The notes below the pieces were generated by a model. The model was not told the origin of the DNA, ran no database searches, and saw only the letters and a program-made list of their open reading frames with translations. Below, piece after piece: positions 8,715 to 64,000 of a stretch of 64,000 bases of DNA. The position numbers and the translations under genes are program-made. Positions within the stretch are counted from its first letter, which is position 1; every line of letters begins with the position of its first letter. The DNA comes from Dimargaris cristalligena. Taxonomy: Eukaryota; Kickxellomycota; Dimargaritomycetes; Dimargaritales; Dimargaritaceae. The stretch is from assembly GCA_027576995.1 (NCBI GenBank), contig JANBQC010000025.1, forward strand, positions 35,904 through 99,903. The letters are read 5' to 3'.

Positions 8715-8720
8715 AATCAG

Positions 8721-8741
8721 ATAATAATAATAATAATAATG
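8721..8741. repeat. (ATA)n microsatellite
   Basis: Perfect AATAAT trinucleotide run about 6 bases after the stop of the coiled-coil gene, probably in its 3' UTR. Confidence 0.9.
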
Positions 8742-9019
8742 AAAGCCAACCCTTCAACTTATAAATGAATTATGCGTGTTATTCCACCAATAACACACCA
8801 GCACCGGTTGCCGCTAGACTATTATATTAAAACGACCGGCGAACCTACGTACAAAAACACTTTTACTAAGAGCCAGAAGGGGCGAATCAGTCGTTTAATT
8901 GTTATTTGATCTTTATTGAATACTATTGTGAATAATGTACAGCATTAAAAAAACTTAGTTTCCGAAAAATTGCAGGCCCCTCCTAACAGCGTGCAGATTA
9001 TAATTAATTAAAGGGCAAT

Positions 9020-9565
<546 letters not shown>

Positions 9566-43716: not shown

Positions 43717-44759
43717 AAGCCTAGACCGGTGTAGTATACCCCCTTCGTTACTCTAGTTACTTTTTTAACCTCTTGTCTATGTGTATTCGTTCGTTTCCCC
43801 GACATGCTCAGTGTATTTCCCCTTCGCAATTTGCGGGTGCCTCGCCGCCCCCCTACTGTACTTTATCTCTCTATCCATGGTGTATTTTCTTTTTATCATT
43901 TCTCCCTATACCACACCCGACCATGTCAGTAGACTGATATCCCAAATACCCCCCCTTTTTCTCTCTCTTCCTTTCTCTCTGTTTATTTATATAACGCATT
44001 TATATATTACATTTCCCCCTTGAACCCTTTTCCATATCCTAATACTCGTCCCCCCCTTACCCCCTCGTCTTAATAAAGACCCATGATCAGCATATACCCC
44101 CCCCCCCCAAACGAGATTCCGATTATCGAGATAACTAATGCTGGGTCCCTGGTCATGGAAGGCCGTAAGCCTTCGTAAGACACCCCACTAAGATGTCTGG
44201 GCAATCCACATAACTTGGGCCAAGTAATGGGACTCTGCGTGTAGTGTGATGTCTCCATAAAGCTATTTAATACGGTTAAGATATTAAGGTCAGCCATACA
44301 CTAGAAGAAGGCCGCGTGGAAAGGTCCATTTGCCAAGACCTGGCTTTGGGGGGTTGTGTGTAATAATGTCCCTAACGAACCCTCTTCACTCTAGTACCCA
44401 TCGAAAGTCCCCTCCCTATTGTTCCCTCTAACTTACACTCACACACCACAGAAAAACCTCCAAATGCTTCGGGGATGTCTCCCCTTCACCTGTGGCATTC
44501 CGCCCCCTCGTTCTTTACGGTTTCTCTACTTGGCTGTCCTACTGCGATTATCTAGGTTTCTGTATAAAATTATATACAGCCCCCCCTCTCTCTCTCTTTC
44601 GCCCCCCTATACATATACACGACGTATTCACATTGGCCGTGGTTGTTAGTGTCCCGTCTCTCCCCGTTGATTGCGCCTACCTTGGGTCTTCCCTTGTACA
44701 TTTTCTTTGCCTCTCCTGGGAAGCCGGGCCTATTTATTTGCCTCACTATCGTTTAGGGC
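43717..44759. other. Intergenic
   Basis: Pyrimidine-rich throughout. TAATAAAG at about 44071 and a C run at about 44098 lie in the CDC4 3' flank, and the AKR1-type leader follows. Plus-strand open frames at 43781-44023 and 44419-44845 are hydrophobic because of T/C richness and are not called. Confidence 0.5.
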
Positions 44760-46820
44760 ATGCTTGCCGATTCGCAGCCTCCTTCACCTACCTCGGGGTC
44801 GGCCCCGGGTCTAGCCCCGGCCCAGCCGTCTGTGCCCCAAGTTGAGGCGGTCACGGTAGAGTCCGCCCCCGTCAAGGGCCAGCCCATGGCCAATCTGGCC
44901 TTTGAACCCGACCTGCACCGCGCCGCCCAGACCGGCGACGTGGCCCGGTGTACGGCCCTCCTCGAGAGTGGCCAGGCGTTGGCCACTGAAACGGATCCCC
45001 AGGGCATCACCGCCCTCCACTGGGCCTCCATCAATAACCAAGTGGCGGTAGTCCAGCTCCTGCTCCGCCATGGGGCCCTCGTGGATGCCCGTAGCCACGA
45101 TCTGCAGGCCACGCCGTTGCACTGGGCCTGTCGTCAGAACTGTCTCCTGGCGGTGCAGGCCCTGTTGGCCCACGGAGCCGACCCGCTGGCCGTCGACTCG
45201 GCCCGCTACAACGCCCTCCATTTGGCGGTCCACGCCGGCAGCCCCATGCTGGTGGCCTATTTGGCCCTAGTGACCCGCATGCCCCTCGACGTGCCCGATG
45301 CCACCGGGCATACCGCCCTCATGTGGGCGGCGTTCCAGGGAGAGGGTTCCATTGTCCGGCTGTTGCTCAATGTCGGGGCGGGTATCGAGGGCCGGGATAC
45401 CAACGGTTTCTCTGCCCTCCACTGGGCCGTCTCGCGCGGGTTTCGCGAGCCCATTGAGGAGCTACTGCGGCGTGGCCTGAGCCCCGACTGCCGGGACGAC
45501 AAGGGCAAAACCCCGCTAGATATCGCCCGGGAGGTCGGCGTTACGGCCATGTACCAAGCCGCCCTCACCACTGTGGAGCAGGAGCGCGGTCCCCACCCGA
45601 CGGTGCGAATCGCCGGCTACCCGGTGGCCACCCTGTTGGCCTATATACTACCCTTTGCCCTAGTTTATACCGCCCTTCGATCCCTGGCCCTCTTTCCCTG
45701 GTTCGCCGGCCTCCCCCTGGCCGTAGCCCTCCTGCTGGGCGGGCACGTCGGTATGTTGCGTTGGGTGATTCGGGCGACCTCCGCCACGGCCATCCACCGC
45801 TCCCCGTACTTTACGGCCGTGTTCCAGGCCACCATGTTCCTGACCATCGGTACCTGGGCCACCACCCTGGCCCCCGACACCCCCGACCACCCCTTCCTTA
45901 ATAGCCTGTTTCTGCTGGCCGCCTTGTCGACCCTCTATACCTTTTACCGGGCCCTGTGGATCAACCCGGGCTATACCCCCCTGCCCCGGGACGTCCGCGA
46001 CTCGGCCCAGGCCCTCGAGGGCCTATTGGTCGGGGGCAAGCTGGATACCAATCACTTTTGCATCACGTGCTTGGTCAAACGGCCCCTGCGCTCCAAGCAC
46101 TGCCGCATTTGTAACCGCTGCGTCGCCCGGTTTGACCACCACTGCCCGTGGATCTATAATTGCATCGGGGTGGCCAACCACCGCCTCTTCCTGGGCTACG
46201 TCGTGGCCATGATCGCCTCCATTGCGCTGTTCATTACCCTGACCGTGCAGTACTTTGTGGCCGTCGATCCGCCCTACGAGCCCATCGAATCCCAACCCTG
46301 TTTCTGGGGCCCCGGCCTCTGTGGGGCCTTTCAATACAACGGCTGGGTACTGTACCTGGCCCTGTGGGACATGGTCCATTTATCGTGGTCCCTGTTTCTA
46401 CTGGGCTCGCAACTGTGCCAAATCGCGGTGGCCAATACCACCAACGAAGGGCTCAATGGCGACCGTTACCACTACCTTTACACGGACGACCCCGATGCCC
46501 CGGCCATGTCCCAGCCGTCGTCGACTAACAGTGGTCGGCGGGGGCCTTCCTTCCTTATGCGACTACTGCCGTTTGCCAAGCCCGGGCATTCACATATACA
46601 CGGGCACCATCACTCGCGGGCCGAACGCCCGCGGGGGGTGTTCCGCAACCCCTTCGATATGGGGCTATGGGCGAATTGCCTGGATTTCTGGTCCGGGGGC
46701 GACCGCGGTCCGCTTGCTAACGTTGATTGGTATGCGCTCGACAGCGTCACTGACTTGCCGGCGCGGCGTCCGAAACGGCGAACCCGGGAACAGCCCAGTC
46801 ACGCCTACGAAATGGTTTAA
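44760..46820 (+). CDS. AKR1: Ankyrin-repeat DHHC palmitoyltransferase (AKR1/ZDHHC17 type)
   Basis: Golgi/endomembrane S-acyltransferase acting on cytosolic faces of proteins (yeast Akr1 targets Yck kinases). Intronless, 686 residues. Six or so ankyrin repeats span about residues 50-265 ([80 protein letters not shown]). Hydrophobic helices follow from about 285 ([34 protein letters not shown]). The Cys-rich catalytic domain is [40 protein letters not shown], with DHHC (not the DHYC of yeast Akr1) at about residue 457-461. Two further membrane helices and a His/Arg-rich cytosolic tail follow. Catalytic residues are intact. AATAAA at 46857-46862 is a likely 3'-end signal. Confidence 0.95.
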
Positions 46821-47287
46821 TACTGTTAGCCCTCTCTCCCCTTTTGCTTAATCTTGAATAAATACCCGTTTTTGATATGCCTTGGTAGCCGTGCGGGAGT
46901 TGATGTTAGTCGCCGTTTGGAATTATTAGGGAGTGTCACGAATGTAGCCCTATATTAATTAGGCGGAAGGGCCTTGGCGTGGGTGGGACTCTAGGAGGTG
47001 TGAGCGGGGCGGAAGACCCAGGTCCGTTGTTATTCGTTCCGCCTTACCACAACACCTCCCCCCATTGCCCAATTACCCATTGGTTTCTATCTGTCTCTTT
47101 CTATTAAAAATATACATGGACTATAAGTATTTTTCGTTGCAGGATTTGCATCTCTAACCCACCCTCCTCTTTTTTTTTTGATATTACCACCTGCTTTCCA
47201 AACGAGTAGCCACTGCTATTCACAACCGGAGGTTCTAAACCCCCTTTTTGTTACCTCACCCCCGTGGGACCAAGTCCGTATATTGCC
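46821..47287. other. Intergenic
   Basis: AATAAA at 46857, AT-rich middle, then CTCTAACCCACCCTCC and a T-run before the SAD1 start. No gene seen. Confidence 0.5.
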
Positions 47288-49122
47288 ATGTCGCTCCCCC
47301 AAGCGAAGCGCCAGCGCACGAAGGGCCAGTCCGGCGATTCCCCACCGACCGTTGATCCCATTGCCACTAGTCCACAGTCGTCCCCATCCCCTGAACCGAC
47401 GGCGGCCGCCTCTGCGCCCCCACCAGCGAACTACAGCACGCTTTACCTCGATTCCGTTAACCGGCGCCTGCTCGACTTTGATTTCGAAAAGGTGTGCTCC
47501 GTGTCCCTGCTGCATCAGAATGTGTACGCCTGCCTCGTGTGTGGCAAGTATTTCCAGGGCCGCAGCAAGGCGTCGCATGCCTACTTCCACAGCATCAACC
47601 AAGACCACCACGTGTATATCAATTTGCACACGCTCAAGGTGTACATTCTACCCGACGGCTACGAAGCCACCGACCCATCCTTGAACGATATTAAATACGT
47701 TATTAACCCCGTTTATTCACCAGCGGACGTGGCCCAGCTGGACCGGCCGCGCTCTCCGTCCCTGGGTGCGTCCGGTTCCCCCCAGGTCGCCTGGTCTACC
47801 GACCTATTTCAGAAGAAGTACCTCCCGGGCTTTGTGGGCATGAACAATATCAAAGCGAACGATTACTTAAACGTGGTGATCCAGGCCCTCGCCCACGTGC
47901 CCGGCTTCCGCGACTATTTCTTAACCGCTGACCTTGGCAGCGCCTCCGAACTGGCCCAGCGGTTCGGTCTGCTTTTGCGCAAGCTGTGGAATCCCCGGGC
48001 CTTTAAAGGCCAGGTTTCGCCCCACGAGCTGGTCCAGGAGGTGGGCAAGGCCAGCCACGGCAAGTTTACGCTGGTGACCCAGGGGGATGCCGCCGAGTTC
48101 CTGGCCTGGTTCCTGAATGCGCTGCACCGCGGGCTGGGCGGTTCGCGCAAGCCCAAGAGTAGTATCGTGTACCGGACCTTCCAGGGGGAACTGGGCATTA
48201 CCACCAAACCCCTGTCCACCGCCGGGGAGTCGCACGAGTCCACTGCGATGGCCGAGGATGGTGCGAAGGAGGCCCCGTCAATCGGTGAATCGGCCGCACC
48301 CGTCCCCCCTCCGACCTTTATGCAGTCGCCTTTCCTCATGCTAAGTCTGGATCTTCCCCCGGCCCCGCTCTTCCAAGACGAGGTACGGGAAAATATCATT
48401 CCGCAAATCCCGCTGGCGGAGCTCCTGGACAAGTACAACGGCTCAACCGCCCAACTCACCGCAACCCAAGCAAAGTACCACCGTTTGCAGCGGCTCCCGC
48501 CCTACCTGATAATTACCATCCAGCGGTTTAGCCGCAGCAACTTTTCGGTGGACAAGAACCCTACGCTGGTGACCTTTCCCCTGGTCAATCTGGACCTCGG
48601 TCGGCTGGTGTCGCCCCCCCAAGCCGACGGTGTCGCCGAGTCCCCGCGGCTGGGCGACCATTACGATTTACTGTCCAATATAAGCCACACCGGCTCCGGT
48701 CCGCGCCGCGGCAAAGACGGCAGTGACCGTGAGGCGCCGTCGTCGGGTAGTTATCAAGTGGATCTGAAGCACCTGGCCTCCGATGAATGGTACCGGATCC
48801 AGGACCTATTCGTCAACCCCATTGACCCCCAGCGCCTGTTTTTATCCGGCGCTTACATTCAGGTAAGTTGACTAATTTATCGCCCTTCTATGCCCTGCCC
48901 GTGGATTGCTCTGTGGTGGTGTCCGTTGCTTTGCGGTTACTTCACAGGCGGCACAGCATGTGTGCCAAGGCCCGTTCTAGGAATAGACGCCGGACGTGTT
49001 TCATCACCCTTGAACCAATTCTAATGGCTGTATCCTCCCCCTCCCTCCTTCTCTCCGTCTTTGTTTTATGATGGGACCTTGCCTCCCCCTGCTAGATTTG
49101 GCGCCGACGTCCCAACCTTTGA
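47288..49122 (+). CDS. SAD1: U4/U6.U5 tri-snRNP protein SAD1/USP39
   Basis: Splicing factor that stabilises the tri-snRNP. Two exons, 47288-48862 and a 27-base last exon 49096-49122 (IWRRRPNL), give 533 residues. The last exon is supported by the family ending YIQIWxR. An in-frame GTG lies upstream, but the ATG at 47288 (MSLPQAKRQRTKGQSG, nuclear-type basic start) is preferred. The ZnF-UBP domain is visible: VYACLVCGKYFQGRSKASHA, YFHSINQDHHVYINLHTLKV. The USP fold begins PGFVGMNNIKANDYLNVVIQ, where the protease Cys is replaced by Asp, as in all USP39 proteins, so it is not an active deubiquitinase. The fold continues through YLIITIQRFSRSNFSVDKNP. The His-box region SDEWYRIQD also lacks a catalytic arrangement. 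Confidence 0.95.
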
Positions 49123-50028
49123 CAAGGGCCAGCGGCTAGCGCTAGCCGGCGTGTCTTTTAGAGGCGATGTACCATATATAGTTTGCCTAGCGGCGGGTCG
49201 TTCATTTAGGTTGCCGGTGGCTGAGGTCAACCTCCCCTCCAACGGAGTCGGACCCCTGCGTCCAATACGCGGGGTCTTTTGCTAATAAATGGTTCTATAG
49301 ATAAAAATGCCTTTAGACGCAGAGTCGGACGCGCTCACCAATGGCAGAAGTGGCGAATAGACTGGCCCCGAGGTGCTTCTATTGTCGGGAATGATATACC
49401 CCCCGTCTGGCCTTATTTAATTGAGCGGGGGCAATGCCCGTCGGCGTCGTTGGCTATTCAACGGAGGGGCAAATGGCGCGGAAGTTACTGCGAAAATGGT
49501 CCAATGGGCGGCTGCTGCCCGACCTTCTCCGAACCATGGATTGTTTTACTTAGACACATTGGTGTAACTATGTGACGATGGGTTGAACCCTCCTTTCTCC
49601 CTTCCTTGTTTTATTGAGGGCCAGAATTATAAGGGATGCGGCCGAAAAAGGACCCGGTGCCCGTATGCTTATATATATATATATGCAAGTCTTCCTCCTG
49701 CCATCATTTTGCCTTCAAATGCAAGGCAATGCTTCTTTTTCACTTTTACTCTACGGACCACGCTTTCCATATTTTAACACCAGGCCCTCTTATCAGTCAG
49801 GGCCAACTCCGTTTTTTACCCCATTTTATTTCCTCACTTACCGTTTAGTATTTTAGCTAAACGATACCACTAGAGAATTACCTGTGGCTACTTATTCATT
49901 TTTCTTACTCGCCGACTCTGGCTCTAGCTAACCATCGCTGGTGGGCATTTAATCCGTCCTGTTGACCACCATATACTGTCCGTTTGAACGGAGTTGTCTT
50001 TGGAGGGGGCGGTGATACCATATATTCA
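49123..50028. other. Intergenic
   Basis: Contains a TA run at about 49672-49685. The plus-strand open frame at 49279-49575 has no family signal. No gene called. Confidence 0.45.
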
Positions 50029-52437
50029 ATGGCCAATTTTCGTCAAGTCACCCGGCCAGGTGCGACAGCTATTGCATGGGCCACTACTACATTACTGACC
50101 ATCATTCTATCCAATAGAGTGGGCACCTACGGTGGTATAATCCCGGCCTCTATGAGCGAGTATCAGCTGCACCAGCCGTCACTTGTTCGCCGGGAACCCC
50201 TGTTCGAATGGCTGCCCTTTGGCTGGGGTTCGAAAAAGGCTAAACCAGTGGAGGAGACCGCGACGGTCCCGCCCACTGCACTTACCCCGGCGGGACCAAC
50301 CCACGAGGCGGCAGAGCTCAAACAACCCGAGACCTCTGGAAACCCCATCCCACCGACCATAGTGACTGCCCAGGCATCCATGTCACCTTTGGAGCCGGCG
50401 GTCCTTGCTCCCAATTCCCCCGATGGTATACCACCCACCCCGTCGCCCGGGCGAGTCCCATTGTACGAAAGCAGCCGAGGGAGTGACGCTGACGATGAGG
50501 AGGGTGGCCCATTACTCGACAACCTAAAGGACCCGAGTAGCGACGAGCCAGAGACCCCCTCCCAAGGGAAGTCCTGGGGGACTCCGAGCAAGGCCGGAGC
50601 CAGCGACCAACTCAAAGGTATGGAATTTTCCCCTTTGCCCCCAGTTGAAAAGCCCGCCACCCTCAGCACCACCAATGGCCCGGATAAGCCCGAAACGGAG
50701 GCGAACCTTGGGTCATTGGTTTCGCTTGGTGGCGGTGGAGACCAGAAGTCGGAGCACACCAAACCTATTGTGGACCAGGCGGTCGACTCGCTGGCATTAA
50801 CGGATAGTGGCTATGAGTCCCTGGGGGACAGCCCCCCGACCTCCCCTCTCTTGGACAAGGTGGCTACGCTGCCGTCCGAGTCATCGCCTCTACAAGATAA
50901 CCTCCGACAGACGCAAGTGCCCCCGGGCTGGGACAACCGTGGGTACGCCGATGATCCCGACCTAAGCAGCGACGACGAGTCAGTCGGTACAACCGTAGCG
51001 AGCGTACCTCGGCGATTGAAACGCGTGGCTTGGCGGGACCCGCCTCGAAAGACGGTCCGGCTGACCGCCTCGTCGGACAGGGGGGGTTATTCGGGAGACG
51101 AGGAGGATAATGGAGACGACCCGGATAATTCCGTCCTCCACCTCTACCATGGGTCCGAGGCCCCGAGTAGCTCTAACCCATCTGTTGCCCCAAGTAGCCC
51201 CAGCTCGTCTGACAAACCCAGCGATTCAATCCTCAACCAAACCATTAAGCAGCAGATGATGGCCTATATCCTCAAGGTCCCCATGCCCGATTTTATGAGG
51301 AAAAAGGTGGTGCAGTATTTTGAAGCGAAACCGGAAAGTGCCCCCGTGGCGCAATCACCGGCGCAGTCGTTGGGCTTTTTTCAGCGGGCCCAGTATAGGG
51401 TGCTCCAGTGGGTCATGAAGGTCTACAATCCCAGCCTTCAGCAGCTGGAGAGGCTGCCGAGCTGGATGCAAGGGGCCGCCTTGAAAAAGATTATGCGCGA
51501 GAAGCGGTCCGCACAACTGAAGGCGGAGGTCAAGGCCGAGGAGGAGGCCGGGGAGTACAACAGCTTCACATTGGTGCCCCATGTCCTTGTAGACCCCAGC
51601 CCCGACTCGGAGGTGGATACTCGAACAGCGGCGGAGAAGGCCGCCTCGAACAAGCTTCTGCGCGAGAATATGGCCGCGCAACTGAAGGCGGAGCTCAAGG
51701 CCGAGGACGAGGCCGGGGAGTACAAGGGCTTCATGCATTTTCCCCATGCCAATTCCGACTCCATATCTGACCCAGGGGCGAACGCCCCGATAGAGGTGGC
51801 CTCCGTGAATTCGGATACCCTTCGGCCAACTCAACTGAACAGTTTTGGCATTCCCGTGTCAGCCAACGGCTACGCCAGCTCCACGGACGCCGATGTTCCG
51901 AAATGGCCGGGTCTATCGGAGGATGGGCAGGAAACGAAACGGCCGGTTGCTTCGACCCCTGGGACAATTCAACTGAACAGTTTTGGCATTCCCGTGTCAG
52001 CCAACGGCTACGCCAGCTCCACGGACGCCGATACTCCGGAATGGCCGGGTCTATCAGGTGCACCCAAGGTCTTGGCCCCGAAGAAACCACCGGTCAGTTC
52101 GCCGCCTTCCCGGTCGTTTCAGCTCAATAGTCTAGGTTTACCCATGCGCCCCAGCGATTCCACCCGCCCCCCAATGGACGACGATTATTACGACAGCCCA
52201 GGCACCCCCGACTTGACCAGCGACGACGACAGCGCGTATGCCTCGGAGCAGTCGCTAATGAGCGATACCGAGGCTGAGGTTAACCACGTTGGGATCCAGC
52301 CCGAGCCACCAACTACCAAGGATTCCGCCCCCAACTTCCACCCCTGGGTTGATAAGAAGCGCCCTTCGCAGCCTTTAAATATCCAAGTGCCAAACTACAG
52401 CGATTTCCCCCCCGTTCATACCACCGCAGCCCATTAG
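50029..52437 (+). CDS. Repeat-rich, probably secreted or membrane-anchored protein of unknown function
   Basis: Intronless, 802 residues from the ATG at 50029 (a TTG-started extension upstream is disfavoured). Residues 1-30 form a signal peptide or anchor (MANFRQVTRPGATAIAWATT then LLTIILSN). The rest is mostly disordered, Pro/Ser/Asp/Glu-rich, with SDDE-type acidic serine clusters (LSSDDESVGTT, LTSDDDSAYASE). A helical part at about 410-570 contains VPMPDFMRKKVVQYFEAKP and two copies of AQLKAExKAExEAGEY, 55 residues apart. Residues about 600-670 hold two copies of QLNSFGIPVSANGYASSTDA, 46 residues apart, with 64 identical bases, and a third degenerate copy QLNSLGLPMRPSDSTRP. The exact DNA repeat implies recent duplication or gene conversion. 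I recognise no family. A secreted, fast-evolving protein is inferred. Confidence 0.75.
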   Translation: MANFRQVTRPGATAIAWATTTLLTIILSNRVGTYGGIIPASMSEYQLHQPSLVRREPLFEWLPFGWGSKKAKPVEETATVPPTALTPAGPTHEAAELKQPETSGNPIPPTIVTAQASMSPLEPAVLAPNSPDGIPPTPSPGRVPLYESSRGSDADDEEGGPLLDNLKDPSSDEPETPSQGKSWGTPSKAGASDQLKGMEFSPLPPVEKPATLSTTNGPDKPETEANLGSLVSLGGGGDQKSEHTKPIVDQAVDSLALTDSGYESLGDSPPTSPLLDKVATLPSESSPLQDNLRQTQVPPGWDNRGYADDPDLSSDDESVGTTVASVPRRLKRVAWRDPPRKTVRLTASSDRGGYSGDEEDNGDDPDNSVLHLYHGSEAPSSSNPSVAPSSPSSSDKPSDSILNQTIKQQMMAYILKVPMPDFMRKKVVQYFEAKPESAPVAQSPAQSLGFFQRAQYRVLQWVMKVYNPSLQQLERLPSWMQGAALKKIMREKRSAQLKAEVKAEEEAGEYNSFTLVPHVLVDPSPDSEVDTRTAAEKAASNKLLRENMAAQLKAELKAEDEAGEYKGFMHFPHANSDSISDPGANAPIEVASVNSDTLRPTQLNSFGIPVSANGYASSTDADVPKWPGLSEDGQETKRPVASTPGTIQLNSFGIPVSANGYASSTDADTPEWPGLSGAPKVLAPKKPPVSSPPSRSFQLNSLGLPMRPSDSTRPPMDDDYYDSPGTPDLTSDDDSAYASEQSLMSDTEAEVNHVGIQPEPPTTKDSAPNFHPWVDKKRPSQPLNIQVPNYSDFPPVHTTAAH
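51831..52032 (+). repeat. In-frame tandem repeat, 138-base unit
   Basis: Bases 51831-51894 and 51969-52032 are identical over 64 positions at an offset of 138 (46 codons). Similarity continues to about 51917 and 52055 with two or three differences. It lies inside the repeat-rich protein gene. Confidence 0.9.
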
Positions 52438-53264
52438 CAGGGTGGTGCTTTGATGTGTATTACTATTACTATTACTATTGCTATTATTATGATTATGAAC
52501 ATGATGTTATGATTGGGTTGAGTTACAGCCATCTATACCCCTCTTAGGCCTTTGTATATTTGGTATGCCTGAATAAAACCGAGTTGTTCCCCCATTTTTG
52601 ACCAGAATATAGAATATATAGGATAAGGGATAGGGATCCTCATAGGCGGAGAGTAGTCTCCATCAAACAGCGGCGGTTGTTTACCTTTTTATTCTATAAT
52701 ATAACCCTCCCGGCTGTTACTTGGGGATGGGTGGGCGCATACTCTGTGGCCCTGGAAGAAACTTGACTGGCCTCAAACCCTGTGGTGCATTCTTTCCAGC
52801 TCCAGGGTAAGAAAACCTTGCCTCTTCACCCTACTGTTGCAGTGATTCCAATTCCAATTCCTATTCCGATTGGCATCATTCCTTTTGTAATTAGTTTATT
52901 GGTCGCTCCGTTCTCTCGTGCAATAGAACTTTACAAGGCTCAGTTAACTGCTTTGGCAACCCTAACTAACCCTCTAAGTCCGCATCCGAGTCCTTCCACT
53001 CCCACTCTCCGCGGGCTCGTCTAACATTTTCCTCACCTGCCCCCCCATTGCCCTCTGGGTCTGAGCTTCACTCTAGTCCCCTCTATCTCTTTCTTCACAC
53101 GACTTGGGTGCCTTGCCCTGCGACCCTTTTCCCGCTGCGCCTGGTATCCCCCCCTCCTTGGAAGCCAGTGCTATTATTTATTATTTTTTTCGGGCTCAAT
53201 TTCCCCCTCTCTATCCTACTCATCACATTAGTCTCGTTTCCGCCGTGGCATCCCTTCCGCTCCC
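52438..53264. promoter_or_regulatory. Intergenic region upstream of NUP155
   Basis: (TATTAC)n-like repeats at about 52460-52492. GAATAAAACC at about 52570 is a likely 3'-end signal of the upstream gene. AACCCTAACTAACCCT lies at 52958-52973, then a C/T-rich leader. Plus-strand open frames here are hydrophobic by composition and not called. Confidence 0.5.
52958..52973. promoter_or_regulatory. Telomere-like AACCCTAACTAACCCT box
   Basis: Two telomere-type units with a short interruption, about 290 bases before the NUP155 start. Confidence 0.4.
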
Positions 53265-56200
53265 ATGAGGCCCCTCGATTCCCCCGACCTAACCCCCTCG
53301 TTGGGCGGTACCGACACGACGTCGGTCACTGGTGAGGCTCCGCTCCCGGCCGCTGAACTTCAGGCCCTCCTATCGAGCTCCGCGACTGAGATCCAAGCTG
53401 GGCATACGGCCGATGCCAAGTACCCTACGCTGGACCAGTTGGTTCAAACCACCACTTCGGGCGAGTACAATCAAGCCCTGTTCCCCGATTGGGTACTGTT
53501 CGTCAAGACCCAGTCGGTCCCCTTGCCCGATTCCCTGTTTGACCAGTACGACCTCCTACACTGCCGGTGCTTCATGGGGCTGTTCCCCGAGATCCAGCGG
53601 GCGTGGCTGACCATTGACCACCGGCTCTTTCTCTGGAACTACGAGGACGGGTCCGAGTTTCACGCCTACGAGGAGCAGGACCAAATCATCATTAGTGTGG
53701 CCTTGGTTAAACCCCGGACTGATGTCCTGGATAGCCAGATTAACCACCTGCTGGTGCTCGCCACCCCCTTGGAGGCGATTCTGCTGGGCGTTGCTTCCCG
53801 CCCCAGCAAAAAGAAGGCGGGCGGCGAAGTCACCTTCTACAGCACCCAGCTCAACGTGCCCACCGATAATGTCAGCATGCACCACATGGTGGGCAGTGCC
53901 GCCGGGCGCATCTTTATGGCCGGCAGCGACTCCAACCTGTACGAAATTGTCTACGCCGCCGAGGAGGGCTGGTTCAGCCGGCGGTGCCGCAAGGTCAACC
54001 TCACCGCCTCCATCTACTCGTATTTGATGCCCAGTTTCCTAACGGGTTCGGAGTCCGACCCCGTTATCCACATGGTGGTGGACGACTCCCGCCAGCTGCT
54101 CTACACCCTGTCATCCCAGTCGCACATTGAAGTGTATTACCTGGGCCCCGGGGGCGACGAATTCCACCACGTATGCCGCAATGACAGCATCTGCCGCAGT
54201 ACCCTGGCCCTGTGCCCCTCGTCCGCCGTCATTCAGCGCAATAACTTTGTGATTGTGTCGCTGCATGTCGTGCCGGCCTCCGAGTCGCGCCGGTTCCACC
54301 TGGTCGCCTCCACCTCGACCGGGTGCCGCCTCTACTTTACGACGGTGGCCCGCGACCAGCGCTTCTACGACCCCAGCTTTGATCCCTCCACCCTCCCCCC
54401 CACCTGCCTGGACTTGTTGCACGTTCGTTTACCGCCCCTCAACGGCCCGACGGCCGCCCAGCCCCCCGCCCGACCCACCGCCCGGGGCAGCCAGGTGAGC
54501 ACGGCCCTCCTCGACGTCCACTGTGCCTTTTATTCACACGAAATCTACCTCGGGGCCAGCGGTCTCGGTGAGGACATGGATACCCTGGTGACCCTGGCCC
54601 CCGATACCGGCCGGGTCGTCCAGCTGATTGCTAGCCAGAGCAGCCGCGTGAATCTCACCGAATTCACCGCAGCGGTGGCTATTGAAGGGAAGACGTGGGC
54701 CGTGGCCGAGTGCCCCCAGACGAGTGTCCTGGGCTCCTATTTACCCCAGACCGAAAATAGCCTCCTCACCCAGGCGTTGACCCCTCCCCGGCAGTTTTTG
54801 GTTCTGACCAACTCGGGCATCAATCTCCTGACCCACCAGCGGCCCGTCGAGTTTTTGTACCAGCTTCTCGCGGGCGCCAACAGCGCCGACCGCCATTTCA
54901 CCACCTTCATGGCCCACTACGGCCCCGCCCAGACCTGTGCCATGTGTCTGCAGATTCTGTGTTCGGACCGGTGGAGTGGCGATGCTGCCACCCCGGGGTT
55001 CAGCCCGTACGACCGGCTGCCCAACCCCGCCGTGCTCAGCAAGGCCCGGTCCATTTTCTTTGATTTGGCCGGTAATACCGGATTGGCCACCCAGGCGCTT
55101 GGGGCCACCCACTCGGCGTTGGCCTCCTCCTCCTCCTCCACCCCGTTCAGTTACCGCTACCAGGGCCTGGTGCTGTACCTCTCCCGCCTCCTGTCGCCCC
55201 TGTGGTACCACCCCTTTCTCCGCGTACGCTCCACCCCCCTGGACGACACCCAGTTCGAGCTGGTGCTGCCCTATTCCGTCCTAACCGCGGTACAGCGCCA
55301 GCTGAGTGATCTACAGGCCTTTGTCACCCGGAACCCCCAGTTTGTGCCCCCCAACGCCCAGGCCCTCTCCTCCTTTGTCAATAAGTTCGATACCCCGGCC
55401 TCAGCCGGCGAGGCCGCGAATTGGCAGAGCGAGCGCCGCGCCCTGTACGGCCTGTCGTTGCTCCTCACCTACGCCAGCGAGGCCATTGCCTTTCTGCAGC
55501 TCCTTCACGAGTTTAAGATGACCGCCGTCGTTCAGCAGATCCCGGCGGCCCTGCAAGCCGACCTACTTAAGATGCAGTTTAAGGACCTGGTCAGCGCGGC
55601 CCAGAGCCGGGATCTCTGCCGCGAGATTGTGATTGCCATGCTGCACCTCCACTCGACCACCAACGCCAACACGGTGGTGGACCTGTTGCGCAAGCGCTGC
55701 GGCCACTTTTGCAACGCCGACGATATTACCCTGTACAAGGCCATGGAAACCCTCCTCCGGGCCAAGGGCACTTTGGCGGGACCCGAGCGCCAGCACCTGC
55801 TCTCGGAATCCCTGCAGCTCTTTGAGCGGATCGCGGTCCACCTCTCGGTACTAACCCTGGACGATATTTGCGAGACGTACAAGCAGTACAACTTCGCCCA
55901 GGGGGCGGCCCAGCTCGCCCTGGCCTGCGCCAAGGCGATTGATCCGCTGGACCAAGGGCTCAAATTCTACCTCGAGGGCGGGGCGGAAGGGGAGGGGCCC
56001 AATGGGGCCGAGCTGTATACCCACCGCAAACAGTGTTACGAACGGGTCTTTAGCGTGCTCGCCGCCCTGGAGCAGCCGAATGCCCGGGCCCGCAGCACCC
56101 CGCCCGACAATAACCGCAAAAGCGCGATGCAGCTTATCATGGCCACCCGGGACCCGCTTTTCTTTTACTGCCTCTACGACTGGTACCTCAGCCGCGGGGA

Positions 56201-57278
56201 CACCCACGACGTGCTTGAAATGGACTCGCCCTACCTGGAGGCGTTCCTGACCAAGGAGCCCGTCGATTTGGTCAAATGTGACCTGCTCTGGAAGTACTAC
56301 GCCCGGTCGAACAAGTTTTTGGAGGCGGCCAAGGTGCTCAGCAACCTGGCCGAGTCCACCCAGTTTCCGCTGGACCTGCCGACCCGGTTGGAGTATCTGT
56401 CCCTCGCGGTAGGCAACGCCCGGAGTGCCCTCAACGGGTCCCAGCGGGCCCCCACCGGGTACTCCCTGCTGCAGGACCTGGAGGAAAAGCTCGAGGTGGC
56501 CCAGATTCAATTGGAGATCCAGCGCCGCCTGACTACCCTCGACGACCCGGTTCCCCCGCAGGTTCGGCTGCGCCTGAATGGGGCCCTATTGACCATTTCC
56601 GACCTGTACAATGACTACGCCGAGCCCTTCAGCCTCTACGACATGATGCTGCTGATCTTTAAGGCGTCCAACCACCACGACCCCGAATATGTCGAGTCCC
56701 TGTGGACCATTATTTTTCAGGACGTTCAGGCGCGGGTGGCCGCCCGCTTCGGGGAGGCGACGGAAGTGGACGGCAGCGACCCCGCGGTGGCCCGGGCGCT
56801 GCTGGATGCGGTGTCCGGCCAGGTCCGCCAACTCGGCCAATTGCTCTACCCGTCCGATTTGGCGTTTCCGCTTAAATTCCTGTGCCCGGTATTGGAGGGT
56901 ATGGCGCTGGAGCGGGCTGCGGTGGCCCCCGCCGGCTGGTGCCCCCAACTCCTACGCGCGGTCGGCGTGCCCTTTGGCCAGGCCTTTGAAATCCTGCATG
57001 CCATGGTGGAGATCCGCGCCGGTCCTTGGAAAACCCCCGCTGGGCTGACCTTTTTGGTGCGTGATATCGTGGACCTACTCAGCCAGTGGCTCGATTCCCT
57101 AGGCCAATCCCGCCACCCCCGGCGGCCGACCACGGGGGTCGAAGAGCCCGACACCTTCCCCGCCAATTTAGTCGACCAGGCGCTGACCCAGTACATCATC
57201 CTCCTCACGGCGATTGACGCCCCGGCCCTGCTCACGGAAATCCAGACGGCCCAGCGTCGCATCCACCAATTGTTTTAA
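53265..57278 (+). CDS. NUP170: Inner-ring nucleoporin NUP155/NUP170
   Basis: Large scaffold nucleoporin of the inner ring of the nuclear pore complex. Intronless, 1337 residues, within the family range of about 1300-1500. An N-terminal beta-propeller (about residues 60-480) shows the conserved family start: YPTLDQLVQT, FPDWVLFVKTQSVPLPDSLF, CFMGLFPEIQRAWLTIDHRL and FLWNYEDGSEFHAYEEQDQI. The PDNVSMHHMVGSAAGRIFMA-like loop is the region that carries the membrane-binding (ALPS) helix in relatives. A C-terminal alpha-solenoid runs from about residue 560 to the end (LLHEFKMTAVVQQIPAALQA, LFERIAVHLSVLTLDDICET, YLSLAVGNARSALNGSQRAP). No FG repeats are present, as expected. The ATG follows a C/T-rich leader. 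Confidence 0.95.
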   Translation: MRPLDSPDLTPSLGGTDTTSVTGEAPLPAAELQALLSSSATEIQAGHTADAKYPTLDQLVQTTTSGEYNQALFPDWVLFVKTQSVPLPDSLFDQYDLLHCRCFMGLFPEIQRAWLTIDHRLFLWNYEDGSEFHAYEEQDQIIISVALVKPRTDVLDSQINHLLVLATPLEAILLGVASRPSKKKAGGEVTFYSTQLNVPTDNVSMHHMVGSAAGRIFMAGSDSNLYEIVYAAEEGWFSRRCRKVNLTASIYSYLMPSFLTGSESDPVIHMVVDDSRQLLYTLSSQSHIEVYYLGPGGDEFHHVCRNDSICRSTLALCPSSAVIQRNNFVIVSLHVVPASESRRFHLVASTSTGCRLYFTTVARDQRFYDPSFDPSTLPPTCLDLLHVRLPPLNGPTAAQPPARPTARGSQVSTALLDVHCAFYSHEIYLGASGLGEDMDTLVTLAPDTGRVVQLIASQSSRVNLTEFTAAVAIEGKTWAVAECPQTSVLGSYLPQTENSLLTQALTPPRQFLVLTNSGINLLTHQRPVEFLYQLLAGANSADRHFTTFMAHYGPAQTCAMCLQILCSDRWSGDAATPGFSPYDRLPNPAVLSKARSIFFDLAGNTGLATQALGATHSALASSSSSTPFSYRYQGLVLYLSRLLSPLWYHPFLRVRSTPLDDTQFELVLPYSVLTAVQRQLSDLQAFVTRNPQFVPPNAQALSSFVNKFDTPASAGEAANWQSERRALYGLSLLLTYASEAIAFLQLLHEFKMTAVVQQIPAALQADLLKMQFKDLVSAAQSRDLCREIVIAMLHLHSTTNANTVVDLLRKRCGHFCNADDITLYKAMETLLRAKGTLAGPERQHLLSESLQLFERIAVHLSVLTLDDICETYKQYNFAQGAAQLALACAKAIDPLDQGLKFYLEGGAEGEGPNGAELYTHRKQCYERVFSVLAALEQPNARARSTPPDNNRKSAMQLIMATRDPLFFYCLYDWYLSRGDTHDVLEMDSPYLEAFLTKEPVDLVKCDLLWKYYARSNKFLEAAKVLSNLAESTQFPLDLPTRLEYLSLAVGNARSALNGSQRAPTGYSLLQDLEEKLEVAQIQLEIQRRLTTLDDPVPPQVRLRLNGALLTISDLYNDYAEPFSLYDMMLLIFKASNHHDPEYVESLWTIIFQDVQARVAARFGEATEVDGSDPAVARALLDAVSGQVRQLGQLLYPSDLAFPLKFLCPVLEGMALERAAVAPAGWCPQLLRAVGVPFGQAFEILHAMVEIRAGPWKTPAGLTFLVRDIVDLLSQWLDSLGQSRHPRRPTTGVEEPDTFPANLVDQALTQYIILLTAIDAPALLTEIQTAQRRIHQLF

Positions 57279-58069
57279 TTTATTGGTTGTGGGGCCGCCT
57301 GGGTATACCGCCCCCCAGCAGGTATCGTCGTCGACCTGGCCCAGAGTTTTATTATTATTAAAAAACGGCCTATTTTATTAGTAGTGATATTATTATTATT
57401 GTTATTTGTTTGGGTTCTTTTGGCGTAGGGTCGGCGTTGTTCTCTCTCCCCTCCCGCTCCTTCTTATATATCGATTTACATTTATAAATATTATAATCGT
57501 TGGCGATGGTCTGGTCGAAGCAAGTTGCGGACCACACCACCACTTTCGTTACCCAGAGAGCCCCCTAGGAATAATGAGTAGATTTTCTATAATCAGTGGT
57601 AGTGGCGGTTTGCTGACTGGCCGGCCTTTAATCGATCATGTGACCCTAAATGGTATCAGAACTCCTCTTCTTTCATCTTTGGGTATACAATGTCCACTTT
57701 TGCCCTTTTCCCTTATTAGGCGCATGGACTATACTGGCCGTGCGATGAGCAAAATGGGTGGTGGTGGCCATAGTGGTAATAGCAGTTGGTCGCAGTTCTT
57801 ACTTTGGAAAAAAAACTTAATGTAAAGGGCAAATATTATACGTCGGGTTTTTCGACGGTGGTGGCACTGGGAAACACTACGCCTGGCCTTTACTAGCCGG
57901 GAGCCCGTTTTAGTCCGCCAAGTAAATATACCAGCTTTCCCTTTCTTACTAAGCCCGCCTCTATAAGCTCTTAAGCTCCATTCCTTACATTGTAGTGAAT
58001 ACCGCCTGTTACTCTAACTTTATATCGATCCCTCCTGCCCCGCCCTAATCCCCTTCCACTTTCCGCAAC
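57279..58069. other. Intergenic
   Basis: ATT/TTA-rich 3' flank (ATTATTATTA at about 57347), then mixed sequence. The plus-strand open frame at 57406-57825 has a hydrophobic start but no family signal. No gene called. Confidence 0.45.
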
Positions 58070-59992
58070 ATGCCCCCCAAGGCCAAAAACAGCGGCACGC
58101 TCGGCAAGGCCATTATCCGGGACCGTTTCAAGGGGCGCACCCGCCCCATTGACGGCGACACCACGCTACATACTGTCGATGTCGACGATGGTCCGAGTTG
58201 GACCAGGCTGCAGTCGGTGACCCAAGAGGGTGATTTGGATGCCTTTCTACGAACCGCCGAACTGGCCGGCACTGAATTCACCGCCGAACGGCAGAATATC
58301 CGCATCCTCGGCAACCAGAATGCGGCCGTCAACCCCTTTTTGATAAACTCTGAACAGGAAAAGGCCCTGCTTGAGCGCCACGCCGAGCACCACGAACGCC
58401 TCACGGTACCCCGTCGCCCCCACTGGGACCATACCACGTCGCGCACGGAGCTCCACCGCGCCGAGCAGGAGTCGTTTCTGGACTGGCGGCGGGAACTGGC
58501 TCACCTCGAAGATACCGAGGGCCTCCTACTGACCCCGTTTGAGCGGAACCTCGAAGTATGGCGGCAACTCTGGCGGGTCATTGAACGATCCTCGCTGATT
58601 GTGCAGATTGTCGATGCCCGTAACCCTCTCTTCTTCCGGTCCACCGACTTGGAAAAATACGTTAAGGAGGTCGACCCCCGCAAGGAAAATCTGCTTCTCG
58701 TGAATAAGGCGGACATGTTAACCGATAACCAGCGCCGCCACTGGGCCCGCTACTTCAAGCGCCACCAAATCGCTTACCTGTTCTTCTCGGCCAAAGTGGC
58801 GGCCGAAACCCTAGAATCGGCGTTGGAGGCGGCGGAGTCGACGGACGAAGACACCGAGGCCACCGAAGCGGCACCCGCACCACCGGCCCCTACTCCCCTC
58901 TCCGCGGAGGAGGCGGAGATTCACGTGCTATCCGTCGATGAACTCGTTGACATTCTTAAAGCGAAATGCCCCAAGGCCAATACCTCCCCCACCGCCTCGG
59001 TCGCCGATTCGACCCGTAAGATTAATATTGGTCTGGTGGGCTACCCCAACGTCGGTAAAAGTTCGACCATCAATGCGCTGGTGGGTGCCAAGCGGGTCGC
59101 GGTCGGCGCCACCCCCGGTAAAACGAAGCATTTCCAAACGCTGCCGCTGGACGACGATACCATCCTCTGTGATTGTCCCGGTCTTGTGTTCCCCTCGTTT
59201 GCCACCACCGCCGCCGATATGATTTGTAACGGTGTCCTGCCCATTGATCAGATGCGGGAGTATATTGGGCCCGCCGGTCTGGTAGCCCAGCGTATCCCCA
59301 AGTGGGTCCTGGAGGCCATTTACGGTATGGAAATCCAGATTAAACCCATTGAAGAGGGTGGCACCGGTGAGCCCACCGCCGAGGAACTGCTCGTGGGCTA
59401 CGCCGTTGCCCGTGGTCTGACCCGTTCGGGCCAGGGTAACCCCGACGAATCGCGGGCGGCCCGCCACATGCTCAAGGACTACGTGAACGGCAAGCTGCTA
59501 TTCTGTATCCCGCCGCCGATTGGCGAATCCGACGATTCCGACGCCCCCGTCTTGACCGGAGAGGCCTTCAACGCCGAACTGTACGACCCGCAGGTGCTGA
59601 TTAAGCGCACCCATCACTTGGTGGAAATGGACGACGGACAGTTCACCGTCAAGGCGCCCGCTAGCAACCGCCTCCGGAATTCGGCCGTTACCTCGACCCG
59701 GGTCCAGACCATGGACGCCCGGTTCTTTGACGAGTCCAACAAGACCGGCCGGTACGGGGCTTCCAAGAAGGGGCAAATCGGCCACCAGCAGTCCTTCCAG
59801 CGGGTACAGCTGTACTCCGGTCAGCAGCGGGTCGATGACCAAGGCCGGCCCATTGACTCGAATTCACCCCTTGGCCGGGCCAGTGTCGCCATGGCAGGCC
59901 TGTCGCTGGGCACGGGTCCCAATATCCGCCTGAAGAAGGGTAAAAAGCAAGGTAAACAGCGCAGTGGCAAGGGCTGCGACGACCTTTACTAG
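58070..59992 (+). CDS. LSG1: Large ribosomal subunit GTPase LSG1
   Basis: Cytoplasmic GTPase that releases the export adaptor Nmd3 from pre-60S subunits. Intronless, 640 residues. The conserved N-terminus LGKAIIRDRFKGRTR matches the family. The GTPase motifs are circularly permuted, as expected for YawG/YlqF-type proteins: G5-like DARNPLF (before G4), G4 NKAD, then G1 GYPNVGKSS (about residue 323), G2 region GATPGKTKHFQT and G3 DCPG. An acidic Ala/Pro insert (about 255-285) lies between G4 and G1. The C-terminal conserved block RIPKWVLEAIYGMEIQIKPI and the Lys-rich end (KKGKKQGKQRSGKG) are typical. GAATAAATTC at about 60146 may be the 3'-end signal. Confidence 0.97.
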   Translation: MPPKAKNSGTLGKAIIRDRFKGRTRPIDGDTTLHTVDVDDGPSWTRLQSVTQEGDLDAFLRTAELAGTEFTAERQNIRILGNQNAAVNPFLINSEQEKALLERHAEHHERLTVPRRPHWDHTTSRTELHRAEQESFLDWRRELAHLEDTEGLLLTPFERNLEVWRQLWRVIERSSLIVQIVDARNPLFFRSTDLEKYVKEVDPRKENLLLVNKADMLTDNQRRHWARYFKRHQIAYLFFSAKVAAETLESALEAAESTDEDTEATEAAPAPPAPTPLSAEEAEIHVLSVDELVDILKAKCPKANTSPTASVADSTRKINIGLVGYPNVGKSSTINALVGAKRVAVGATPGKTKHFQTLPLDDDTILCDCPGLVFPSFATTAADMICNGVLPIDQMREYIGPAGLVAQRIPKWVLEAIYGMEIQIKPIEEGGTGEPTAEELLVGYAVARGLTRSGQGNPDESRAARHMLKDYVNGKLLFCIPPPIGESDDSDAPVLTGEAFNAELYDPQVLIKRTHHLVEMDDGQFTVKAPASNRLRNSAVTSTRVQTMDARFFDESNKTGRYGASKKGQIGHQQSFQRVQLYSGQQRVDDQGRPIDSNSPLGRASVAMAGLSLGTGPNIRLKKGKKQGKQRSGKGCDDLY

Positions 59993-60410
59993 GGATTGAG
60001 GCCCGAGGGATGCAATAATTACCTAGAGGCTGTTCTCTCCCAGTGGATGGTTTTTTTTTCTTTAGCTGGACTCCCCTTCTGACCCGATGGCTATTTTGAT
60101 ACAGTCGGAGTTATGTGTCCCGTCCTAAATTCATGTAAACAATATTTGGAATAAATTCGGTATACGGGGATTAGAGGAATGTATATCCCATTGACTAGAT
60201 AATGTAACCTATCTAGACTGCGGGGGGATAGCCGTCGAAACTTAATCCCTTTACACCGATGCCTGATTACCCATATGTTGCGCCGTTATTGGGTGGACCG
60301 GAAGGGTCGGGGAGTACTTCATTGCAGGGTAAAGCGGGCATATTCGACGGTGGATTTAATCCCTTCACCAGATGAACGAGCTTTTGCGAACGGGGTGTTT
60401 TGGGTTTTAG
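59993..60410. other. Intergenic, junction with pseudogene
   Basis: LSG1 3' flank. Nothing matching the missing N-terminal half of KRE33/NAT10 is visible here. TTTTGGGTTTTAG at 60398-60410 looks like a splice acceptor leading into the homologous segment. Confidence 0.5.
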
Positions 60411-62570
60411 GTGTCCTGCCGCTGGTCAAAGACCTTATGGGCCCTTTGCCTGGTGTTCATGTCCTCCATCATCAACGGCTTCGAAAGCACCGGTCGCTCC
60501 CTCTCGCTCAGGCTTATCCAGCAGAGCCAGGAGACCACCGGGTCGGGCGTGATGGCACGCCCCTCAAGATGGGCAGCGGTTCGACGGACGGTACCGTACT
60601 GGGATCGACCGGCAGCCGGTCCCTCCGCGAAATCAAGCTGGAGGAACCCAGCCGGTACGTCGATGGCGACTCGACAGAGAAATGGCTCAACCGACTGCTG
60701 TGCCTCGACACCTCCATGGTCACCAAGAACATCCACGGCTGCCCCCACCCCTCGGAGTGCGAGCTCTACTACGTGAACCGGGACACCCTCTTTTCCTTCC
60801 ACCCCGTGAGTGAGACGTTCCTCCAGCGCATGATGGCTCTCTACGTGGCCAGCCACAACAAGAACGCCCCCCATGACCTGCAGCTCATGTCCGATGCCCC
60901 GGCCCATCACCTGTTCGTCCTCCTGCCTCCCGTGGACGCGAGCGCCAACACTTTGCTCGATCCTCTGTGCGTGGTCCAAGTGTGCCTGGAAGGTCAAGTC
61001 TCTCGCCAGTCTGGGGTGAACAGCCTGCAGCGCGGCGTCCGGTCCAGCGGGGACATGATCCCCTGGCTCATGTCCTAGCAGTTCCAGGACAACGACTTTG
61101 CTGGTATGTCCGGGGCCCGCGTCATGCGTATCGCCACCCACCCCGACTACGCCAACATGGAATACAGCTCCCGCGTGTTGGAACAACTCCACAGCTTTTA
61201 CGCGGGCGAATTCCCGAACCAGGATGAAAAGGCTCCTATGGACGGAGAGGCCCACGAGGCCTCGTTCCACCGCCTGGACGACGCGGATCTGGACGAGCTG
61301 GACCTGGCCACCGACAAGCCCAAGGTACGGGACCCCCACCGCATGCCTCCGCTGCTCATGAAGCTCTCCGAGAAGCGCGCCCCCCCAACTCCACTACTTG
61401 GGGGTGTCGTACGGCCTCACCGCCAGTCTCCACAAGTTTTGGAAGCGCGCCAGATTCATCCCCGTCTACCTCCGCCAAACCGCCAATGACTTGACGGGCG
61501 AGCACACCTGTGTGATGCTGCGGGCCCTGCCCAGCGACGCCGCCCGCCAGGCCGTGGTGGTATCCGACGACTGGCTGCAGGCCTTTGCCCAGGACTTTCA
61601 ACGCCGGTTCATCCACCTGCTGGCCTACCAGTTCCGCAACTTTACCTCGGTGACGGCCCTTAGCATCATGAACAGCGTGAACCCCAGCGACGCTGATGCT
61701 CTGGCCGCCTCGGGCTAAGCCAGCGCCGCGCCATCGAACCAGCCCCTCGTGACTAGCCGGGCCGACCTATTCCGCGAGTTGACCTCGTTTGATCCCAAGC
61801 GCCTGGAGAGCTACAGCAACAACCTGCTCGACTACCATGTCGTTATGGATCTGCTGTCTACCCTGGCCGGCCTGTAATTTAATCACTGCATCATCGACCT
61901 GTCCGCTAAGCAGGACGGCGACACCGAGGAGTACCCGTCTCTCACCCTGTCCGCCATCCCGAACAGAATCCTCCTGGCCATTGGCCTCCAATGCAAGAGC
62001 GTCAGCGATTTGGAGAAAGAGCTGAATCTACCCTCTAACCAGATTATGGGTATGCTCATTAAAATCATCAAGAAGTGTTACACCTCCTTCCGACTGGTAC
62101 AGTCCCAGGTGACCATTGCGGCGTCGCCCAGTCTCCTGGCCCCTCCCGCCCCAGCCGGTTCCGCCCTCGACAACGACAACGACGACGATGACGACCAAAG
62201 TGAGAATGGCGACAGCGAACCGACTGGTGCCCCGGCTACCTCGCTTTAGCGCCGCGAACTCCCCACCTCCTCCAACCGGCTCATTAATCCCGACACGATT
62301 GACGCCGAAAACGAAGAGTGGGCCCCCGTGAACCAGTCTCTGGACGACGATGTTGGTTGGGAGGGTCAGCAGGTTATCCGTAAACAACAGCGGATCGTGG
62401 TCAATTTGTTGTATTTGCAGCAATACAAAATAGGCGAAGAAACGCGGGACTAGTCCCAGACCGAGTCCCAGATTGCCAAGGGGAGCTCTAGTTCCAGCGT
62501 GGTCAGTATTGTGAACCCCCTTGGCACCCCCGCCAAACGAACCCGCGGTGGTCCTATGCGCCGCTTGCCT
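60411..62570 (+). pseudogene. KRE33: Decayed, 5'-truncated KRE33/NAT10 RNA cytidine acetyltransferase
   Basis: Intact KRE33/NAT10 makes N4-acetylcytidine in 18S rRNA and tRNA and is a helicase/acetyltransferase of about 1050 residues. Here only the C-terminal part (from about the end of the helicase domain) is recognisable: LPLVKDLMGP, then LVFMSSIINGFESTGRSLSL, SLREIKLEEP, CPHPSECELYYVNRDTLFSF, LMSDAPAHHLFVLLPPVDAS, FQDNDFAGMSGARVMRIATH, LGVSYGLTASLHKFWKRARF, VYLRQTANDLTGEHTCVMLR and LAIGLQCKSVSDLEKELNLP. Three frame changes (about 60445, 60550-60615, and 61387 after a C run) and five in-frame stops break it: TAG 61076, TAA 61716, TAA 61875, TAG 62247 and TAG 62451. The acetyl-CoA loop, normally GxGYGSR, reads NMEYSSR. 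It cannot encode a working enzyme. An intact copy must exist elsewhere, or the assembly is faulty. Confidence 0.93.
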
Positions 62571-64000
62571 CCGCCCATCGACTGGTTGCGAAGTACGCCG
62601 ACCGCCTGTTCTGGTTCGTTTTTTTATTATTATTCATTTTCTCTATCAATTCCCTACACGAGAACGGGGCAGTTACGGAGCGGCCCCATCGGGCTTAGTT
62701 TACACGGTCATTTAACAACGGTTTCAATAAAATCGGGATTCCAGAGTCGTTTCTGTTATGGTTTAGTTTGTCGTTGTTGAGGACGATTGAACTGGCTTTT
62801 TGGTTTAGCCGTTGGGCAGCTGGCCTTCATGACTTGACGCGGGTGACTCGTCGCCTATTTATACCCAACTGCCTAGACGTAGGTCCTCGGAAAAACCAGC
62901 GCGAGCCCCATTCCTATGGAGTACGGCGTGGTGCTCGCTCAACGTCCGCCCTGTCACTAAGGGCGCCGTTGATTATTTACGCTCGTCCCTGGGCACCATG
63001 CCGAAGTCACCGATTCCGAATGCTCCATTGGACTTCCAATGGCCCGTTGGGATCGACACCAGTTTATGCCCACCACTAGTTAGCTCAGGGCCCCCGCCTT
63101 TGCTGTGCGACGTATTCGTTTAGGTACCATTCAAGTTGGCGAGGGCCACTCCATTCAGGCAAATGGCTCGTCTTGGGGTGCTCCCACTTGGTCTACTACA
63201 CTTTCGAAGACTCGGGTTGTACTTGGACTCTGGTCTACACTCGGGTACACCGTTCATATTCTTATACTAACGTTTAGACGGCATTTACTTCAACGGTGGG
63301 ACCGATTTAGCCTTCGTCAGTTCCCTGTCAAGAGGAATGGGCAAGCCTCATGGACCGAGTTTGGTGTATAAAGAATCGTAATAGCCGCCGAACTAGTTAG
63401 TATCAAGTAGGGGGATACTACGAAGTGTAATAATAAAAGGATGAATAGTACTAAATAGGCCAATTGATGAACTAAGTAGGGAAAAATAATAAGCAGGCGA
63501 ACTAATTAACAAAAGGGGTCAAATAGCTGGTTTATGTATTCAAGAGATGGGTTATGAGTAGTCATATAGTGCGAAATGCGGGGAAATGACAATGTACTAC
63601 TAGATATATCTAAAATCATGGCCGGAATTGGCTGGGGTATTGAGGAAGCAAGTGTAGCTCTTTGGCCTAGTAAGGGAATACATCCCCTCTTGAACCTTTG
63701 CAGAAGTTAGCCACTAAAACAAGGCCCTGATTAATAGCAGAATATAGTGGTATCAAGGGACCTTTAGAAGGGACTATAGGGTCATATATATTGGCATGGT
63801 CATGGTTAGCATACAGCAGTCATAGTAGTAGTTTTGATATGTCCCCTGACTATATTATGTGTGGTTTTGAAAACCAGATCCATAGTAGGCAACCTATTGT
63901 ATCAGAGGGGAACATGGCTACTGAAATACACAGCTGGCCTGGGATTTATGAGGTTAGTGATTCCTATCAGTTTGCCTTATTAAAGAGTAAATCACTAGGT
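62571..64000. other. Right-end region, no clear gene
   Basis: From 62627 (TTATTATTATTC) composition shifts. Open frames at 62768-63079 and 63105-63371 have no family signal. From 63370 to the end the sequence is AT-rich, with TAATAATAA and TATATA words and no open frame of note. It could be spacer or decayed sequence. Confidence 0.45.

Follow-up and report, generated by a model that had tools for sequence, protein, structure and literature searches.

The NAT10-like locus at the end of contig C25

The window, i.e., the whole stretch of DNA analysed here, forms the final 64000 bases of the 99903-base contig C25 of Dimargaris cristalligena; the genome searched amounts to 27.1 Mb in 779 contigs. 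Near the window end, on the forward strand, lies a 5'-truncated and disrupted copy of the gene for the RNA cytidine acetyltransferase NAT10/KRE33. It is preceded by a GTPase gene, presumably LSG1, and followed by AT-rich DNA up to the contig end. Related DNA is found on contigs C150 and C121. The features of the three loci are as follows:

58070..59992, + strand: LSG1-type GTPase, upstream neighbour with an open frame (PF01926 match)
59993..60414, no strand: spacer from LSG1 to the fragment; no other genome matches listed
60415, + strand: 5' end of the homology to the intact gene (breakpoint); similarity absent upstream
60415..62550, + strand: 5'-truncated NAT10/KRE33 copy, 91% DNA identity to C150
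62551..64000, + strand: downstream flank copied along with the fragment and apparently non-coding; shared with C121 up to the window end and with C150 up to about 63683
63601-64000, strand not given: CpG-poor AT-rich repeat DNA by CpG counts, as at C121:54087-56086 (L013) and loci L020-L048
C150 (L012) 6492-9192, strand not given: ERB1/BOP1, neighbour of the intact NAT10
C121 (L013) 915-3797, strand not given: RRN3, neighbour of the C121 fragment

The window copy corresponds approximately to residues 394-1117 of the intact protein (1165 aa) and retains a small piece of the C-terminus. With this protein as the query, tblastn gave two matches, each with E printed as 0.0: 60416-61402 to residues 394-735 at 78% identity, and 61383-62540, read in a different frame, to residues 729-1117 at 90%; window 60415-62539 is 91% identical to the intact gene on C150 at the DNA level. 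Pfam recognises PF13718 and the end of PF05127, which begins only at model position 144 of 176 (the last 33 positions); TmcA_N is missing and most of the helicase is gone. An earlier sequence-only reading had described about 2.1 kb of C-terminal KRE33/NAT10 similarity with the N-terminal half absent, and the tblastn, DNA and PF05127 matches agree with both points. Its span of 60411..62570 has to be adjusted at both ends, as the homology starts at 60415 and the coding match runs to about 62550, while homologous DNA reaches 64000.

A 213-aa protein (P0121) is listed as the window's own on C25. The antisense ORF at 60407-61339 over the fragment was considered as a gene and set aside as a shadow, similar antisense ORFs being present over the intact gene. 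No Rfam match to an RNA element was obtained in 59900-64000 up to E 0.1.

The intact gene on contig C150

C150 carries a 1129-aa open frame with all four Pfam domains (TmcA_N, helicase, GNAT and tRNA-binding). The frame is 100% identical to P0001, a 1165-aa NAT10 record. The 36 residues that P0001 adds are located in an upstream ORF, and a short first exon of the C150 gene is therefore inferred. Across the region covered by the copies the gene has no introns. The window copy derives its sequence from KRE33/NAT10, as does the C121 fragment with PF13725, but differs from a functional NAT10 by the lack of TmcA_N, of most of the helicase and of a continuous frame, all of which are present at C150.

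In the genome profile search, PF05127 was found beyond the window on C150 only, and PF13718 at four places that correspond to three loci: C150 (349 bits, in the open frame), the window (two pieces of 213 and 84 bits, with one stop inside) and C121 (42 bits, with three stops inside). Neither these profile matches nor the DNA search of the genome revealed a second intact NAT10. To judge from its open frame, C150 is probably the working copy. The sequence-only reading had expected one elsewhere and had proposed a genome search with NAT10, which does lead to an intact second locus. Since this open frame exists, the fragment is not a unitary pseudogene, i.e., one in a genome without a working copy.

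Lesions and decay of the window copy

Alignment to C150 gives three frame changes and five in-frame stops, the same counts as those read from the window alone. The lesions, all on the + strand and located by alignment and, for the stops, codon comparison, are as follows:

60444..60446: frame change 1, an additional base compared with C150
60533..60534: frame change 2, a 40-nt gap relative to C150
61076..61078: stop TAG (CAG in C150)
61382..61388: frame change 3, an additional C within a C run compared with C150
61716..61718: stop TAA (CAA in C150)
61875..61877: stop TAA (TAC in C150)
62247..62249: stop TAG (AAG in C150)
62376..62377: 9-nt deletion relative to C150, common to C121, with the outgroups compared by eye
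62451..62453: stop TAG (TGG in C150), common to the C121 fragment
62530..62550: 57-nt gap (window copy alone) and 63-nt gap (also C121) against C150 in the C-terminal tail

The 9-nt gap is read as a deletion because the outgroup proteins P0002 and P0004 have the length of C150.

The window copy and C150 differ at 73 amino-acid positions, stops included. When polarised by the majority of 10 other fungal proteins, 54 differences are derived in the window, 10 in C150 and nine are unclear. Among 705 comparable codons, there are 56 synonymous and 66 non-synonymous single changes, and seven codons with more than one changed site. The synonymous share is 46%, above the neutral 24-30% but short of full constraint; such an intermediate value would be expected if one branch were constrained and the other free. 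The expected number of stops is 1.8, 2.4 and 3.4 for 70, 92 and 137 random substitutions, and the probability of five or more is 0.04, 0.10 and 0.26, respectively. Five stops are thus in line with neutral decay, with no clear excess. The fragment has decayed under little constraint.

The third copy on contig C121

A shorter dead NAT10 fragment with PF13725 lies at about 51877-53080 of C121. Of the four stops in its 390 counted codons, one also occurs in the window and three are private to it. The two fragments share this TGG-to-TAG stop, the 9-nt deletion, the 63-nt gap, the replacement of Q/S/S by P/N/R at 61959-61965 and several replacements at sites that the outgroups conserve. Because a nonsense change and a deletion are shared, one broken copy was probably copied again, and by their sequence the two fragments are probably sisters.

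The relation among the three loci is patchy. At 61465-61614, two of 150 sites separate the window from C150 and 24 separate it from C121; at 61915-62064, the corresponding numbers are eight and three of 150. Site patterns are clustered: the 280 sites form 111 runs, whereas shuffling yields 175 on average and never gave a number as low in 10000 trials. The longest stretch without a given site class exceeds the shuffles for two of the three classes (p 0.0003, 0.04 and 0.38). From this, ectopic gene conversion or recombination is inferred. Clustering can also arise if constraint varies along C150 or if the alignment is poor where C121 begins to match, and confidence in the conversion step alone is below that in the overall account of the fragment given further on.

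The likeness between the window and C121 rises to 97% at 63565-64000 (13 differences in 436 bases), as compared with about 91% at 62215-63564 (125 in 1344). The assembler may therefore have merged the next stretch of C25 into C121.

Flanks, repeats and neighbouring genes

The homology continues past the gene. Window 62532-64000 is 92% identical to C121, and window 62547-63683 is 90% identical to C150. The copied flank is AT-rich and extends for about 1.45 kb up to the contig end, as counted from the gene end. The longest ORF in the conserved flank at C150 (179 aa) gave no hit to Pfam at E values up to 0.01. Within the flank, 62815-63264 is 96% identical between the window and C150 (18 differences in 450 bases), above most of the fragment. 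Near 62858, this stretch contains what we take to be a TATA-like motif.

The match to the C150 flank stops at about 63683, where a dispersed repeat starts. Bases 1-115 of C150 have nine further matches in the genome at 83-99%; in eight the match covers bases 1 to 107 or 108, and in the ninth 32-111. The five repeat copies examined at both ends measure 770-805 bases and run from TG to CA; their 4-base target duplications are perfect in four cases and carry a mismatch in the fifth. By these sequence marks, the C150 repeat (C150:1-107; family L040-L048) looks like a solo LTR. As the window and C121 copies lack the repeat at this place, its insertion in C150 would postdate the duplication. It cuts the flank of the intact NAT10. 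The C121 tail also consists of AT-rich DNA with dispersed repeats and gave at least 54 matches, the self match included (40 of 52 candidates scored).

On the upstream side, genome searches with the 422 bases before the fragment, with C150:3510-10000 (upstream DNA of the intact gene) and with C121:46887-51886 (before the C121 fragment) returned the self match only. Window 40001-59992 gave five short matches of 37-81 bases; its self match was missing from those listed, so this is a weak negative.

Each NAT10 locus adjoins a gene for ribosome making (the LSG1-type GTPase, ERB1/BOP1 and RRN3, respectively), which may be chance. A subtelomeric origin was also considered. Three tandem TTAGGG units occur at two places (C31 and C226), against four for the reversed control, and telomere repeats are absent from C25, C150 and C121, so that this reading is without support.

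Origin of the window copy

The window copy is best explained as a duplicated (unprocessed) pseudogene from the C150 locus, with a probability of about 0.9. An intact parent exists elsewhere, about 1.45 kb of flank past the gene was copied with the fragment, and disabling lesions are accompanied by relaxed constraint. A DNA segment running from inside NAT10 to at least 1.45 kb past its end would have been copied from the C150 locus elsewhere. Since it had no promoter, start codon or N-terminal half, the copy would have been dead on arrival and would then have decayed almost unconstrained. From this broken copy a shorter part would have been duplicated again, giving the C121 fragment, and patchy gene conversion among the three loci may have followed. 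The likely route is repair-based copying at a repeat-rich edge, by break-induced replication or ectopic recombination; it is rated no higher than likely because the 3' breakpoint lies beyond the contig, C25 ending at the window end. The fragment most likely has no function.

Two of the other explanations also start from the NAT10 gene itself. The sequence-only reading had left a choice between a segmental duplicate and the decayed original after relocation. The first is favoured by the intact C150 parent, the co-duplicated flank, the shared lesions and the decay on the fragment side. The second, an ancestral NAT10 beside LSG1 whose working gene moved to C150, is improbable, as the 5' half of NAT10 and its upstream DNA are found at C150 only, the DNA before both breakpoints has no counterpart, and each dead copy would need a separate loss of its 5' half. 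Truncation at different points on the 5' side with a common 3' side is a frequent property of retrocopies, so both dead copies could recall a processed pseudogene formed by LINE-type reverse transcription and insertion of the NAT10 mRNA. Introns cannot argue against this, the parent being intron-free in the covered region. The homology nevertheless runs about 1.45 kb past the gene into the AT-rich flank, and no poly(A) end is present up to the contig end; the shared lesions moreover argue against two independent insertions. A retrocopy is accordingly very improbable.

The remaining two explanations concern the data and the mutations. The public genome of D. cristalligena, according to the accessible part of its report, was co-assembled from short reads of amplified cells and is 99.34% complete by CEGMA (PMC6784888); it is assumed to be the assembly analysed here. 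Such a co-assembly, together with the position of the fragment close to a contig end, gives some room for an assembly or amplification artefact, and the junction between LSG1 and the fragment could be a chimaera. The diverged sequence itself could not: the divergence is 6-10%, lesions recur on two separate contigs and most changes belong to the branch of the fragment, so that an artefact is hardly credible as the source of the copy. Killing of the window copy by repeat-induced point mutation (RIP) is just as hard to credit. C-to-T/G-to-A is indeed the commonest class on the window lineage at 61388-62549 (17 of 29 changes), and with both copies pooled, C-to-T is in excess at CpG (27/572 against 46/1673 at other C, p=0.03). 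This pooled value is the sole sign of the process. Neither copy alone has a significant CpG excess (p=0.17 and 0.12), CpG observed/expected is 0.81-1.17 in the six 400-base bins of 60401-62800, and all three frame changes are indels; dense C-to-T change with dinucleotide bias and loss of CpG or CpA is not seen.

In kind, the window copy is an ordinary dead duplicate. It resembles other duplicated pseudogenes of segmental origin in the partial copy, co-duplicated flank, lesions, intact parent and relaxed decay, and nothing essential differs; in the present case the 3' end lies out of view, and a second round of copying seems to have started from the dead copy. The sequence-only reading took pseudogenes of this kind to be uncommon in compact fungal genomes; dead copies of a fungal housekeeping gene are on record. 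In Pseudocercospora fijiensis, the accessible part of PMC6710886 describes transposon-aided amplification of a housekeeping gene, histone H3, with dead copies, the original kept and repeats nearby. Unlike the hundreds of dead copies described there, two were found here, no carrier transposon was identified and the fragment is without RIP. Among the matches listed, no literature on this NAT10 pseudogene was found. Annotators should label the fragment a pseudogene, lest it be taken for a second NAT10. For an early-diverging fungus, it is a modest case of an essential gene whose end was partially duplicated and, as the shared lesions suggest, then duplicated again.

CpG loss in the neighbouring repeats

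As a neutral yardstick, the fragment also makes the CpG loss of nearby repeats conspicuous. CpG is at normal levels in the NAT10 duplicates, which exceed 1 kb and are about 90% alike, but is almost gone from some of the repeats around them, together with part of the CpA. Window 63601-64000 contains one CpG (observed/expected 0.06), as compared with 1.05 in the preceding 400 bases. The border near 63600 is sharp, falls inside the copied segment and recurs in C121, where the values fall from 0.86 to 0.12 and then to 0, with three bins at 54487-55686 having no CpG at all. At 29 loci (L020-L048), which are not a random sample because they were chosen for matching the C121 tail or the LTR-like repeat, CpG observed/expected is below 0.2 in 31 of the 56 400-base bins with G+C under 40%.

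Loss is uneven within repeat families. In a six-copy family, two copies keep 15 of 15 CpG sites (full scores that are partly built in, because sites required CG in at least two copies), and the others keep 0, 0, 1 and 0, most sites being lost as TG, CA or TA. In a second family, 22, 25, 27, 11, 13 and 0 of 34 sites are kept, and in a third, 32, 23, 10, 31, 26, 11 and 3 of 37 (gaps not counted). Across the three families, the C-to-T fraction is 0.20-0.26 at CpG, 0.175, 0.118 and 0.087 at CpA, and 0.05-0.11 at CpC/CpT.

A process driven by methylation or akin to RIP possibly underlies the CpG-poor repeats of this early-diverging fungus. In the accessible main text of a 2025 RIP survey, Zoopagomycota appears once and Dimargaris never (PMC12543289). 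The literature pairing 'Dimargaris cristalligena' with 'CpG' consists of oral-mycobiome work only, among the matches listed and within their accessible text.

A bolder and rather doubtful proposal is that, unlike in classical RIP, the erasure of CpG in Dimargaris tracks a block of repressed chromatin and not duplication as such, the NAT10 copies being spared and a DNMT1-like enzyme being the candidate agent. Against it, 25 of the 56 AT-rich repeat bins are not below 0.2, and the repeat at the C121 end keeps most of its CpG directly beside the CpG-poor block. The candidate enzyme is a 1588-aa open frame on contig C448 of the genome (G000; L052:1967-6730, - strand) with DNMT1-RFD, BAH and cytosine-5 methylase domains. 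It is the only strong PF00145 match in the genome profile search, a weak second one (34 bits) being on C113, and among solved structures its protein is closest to DNMT1.
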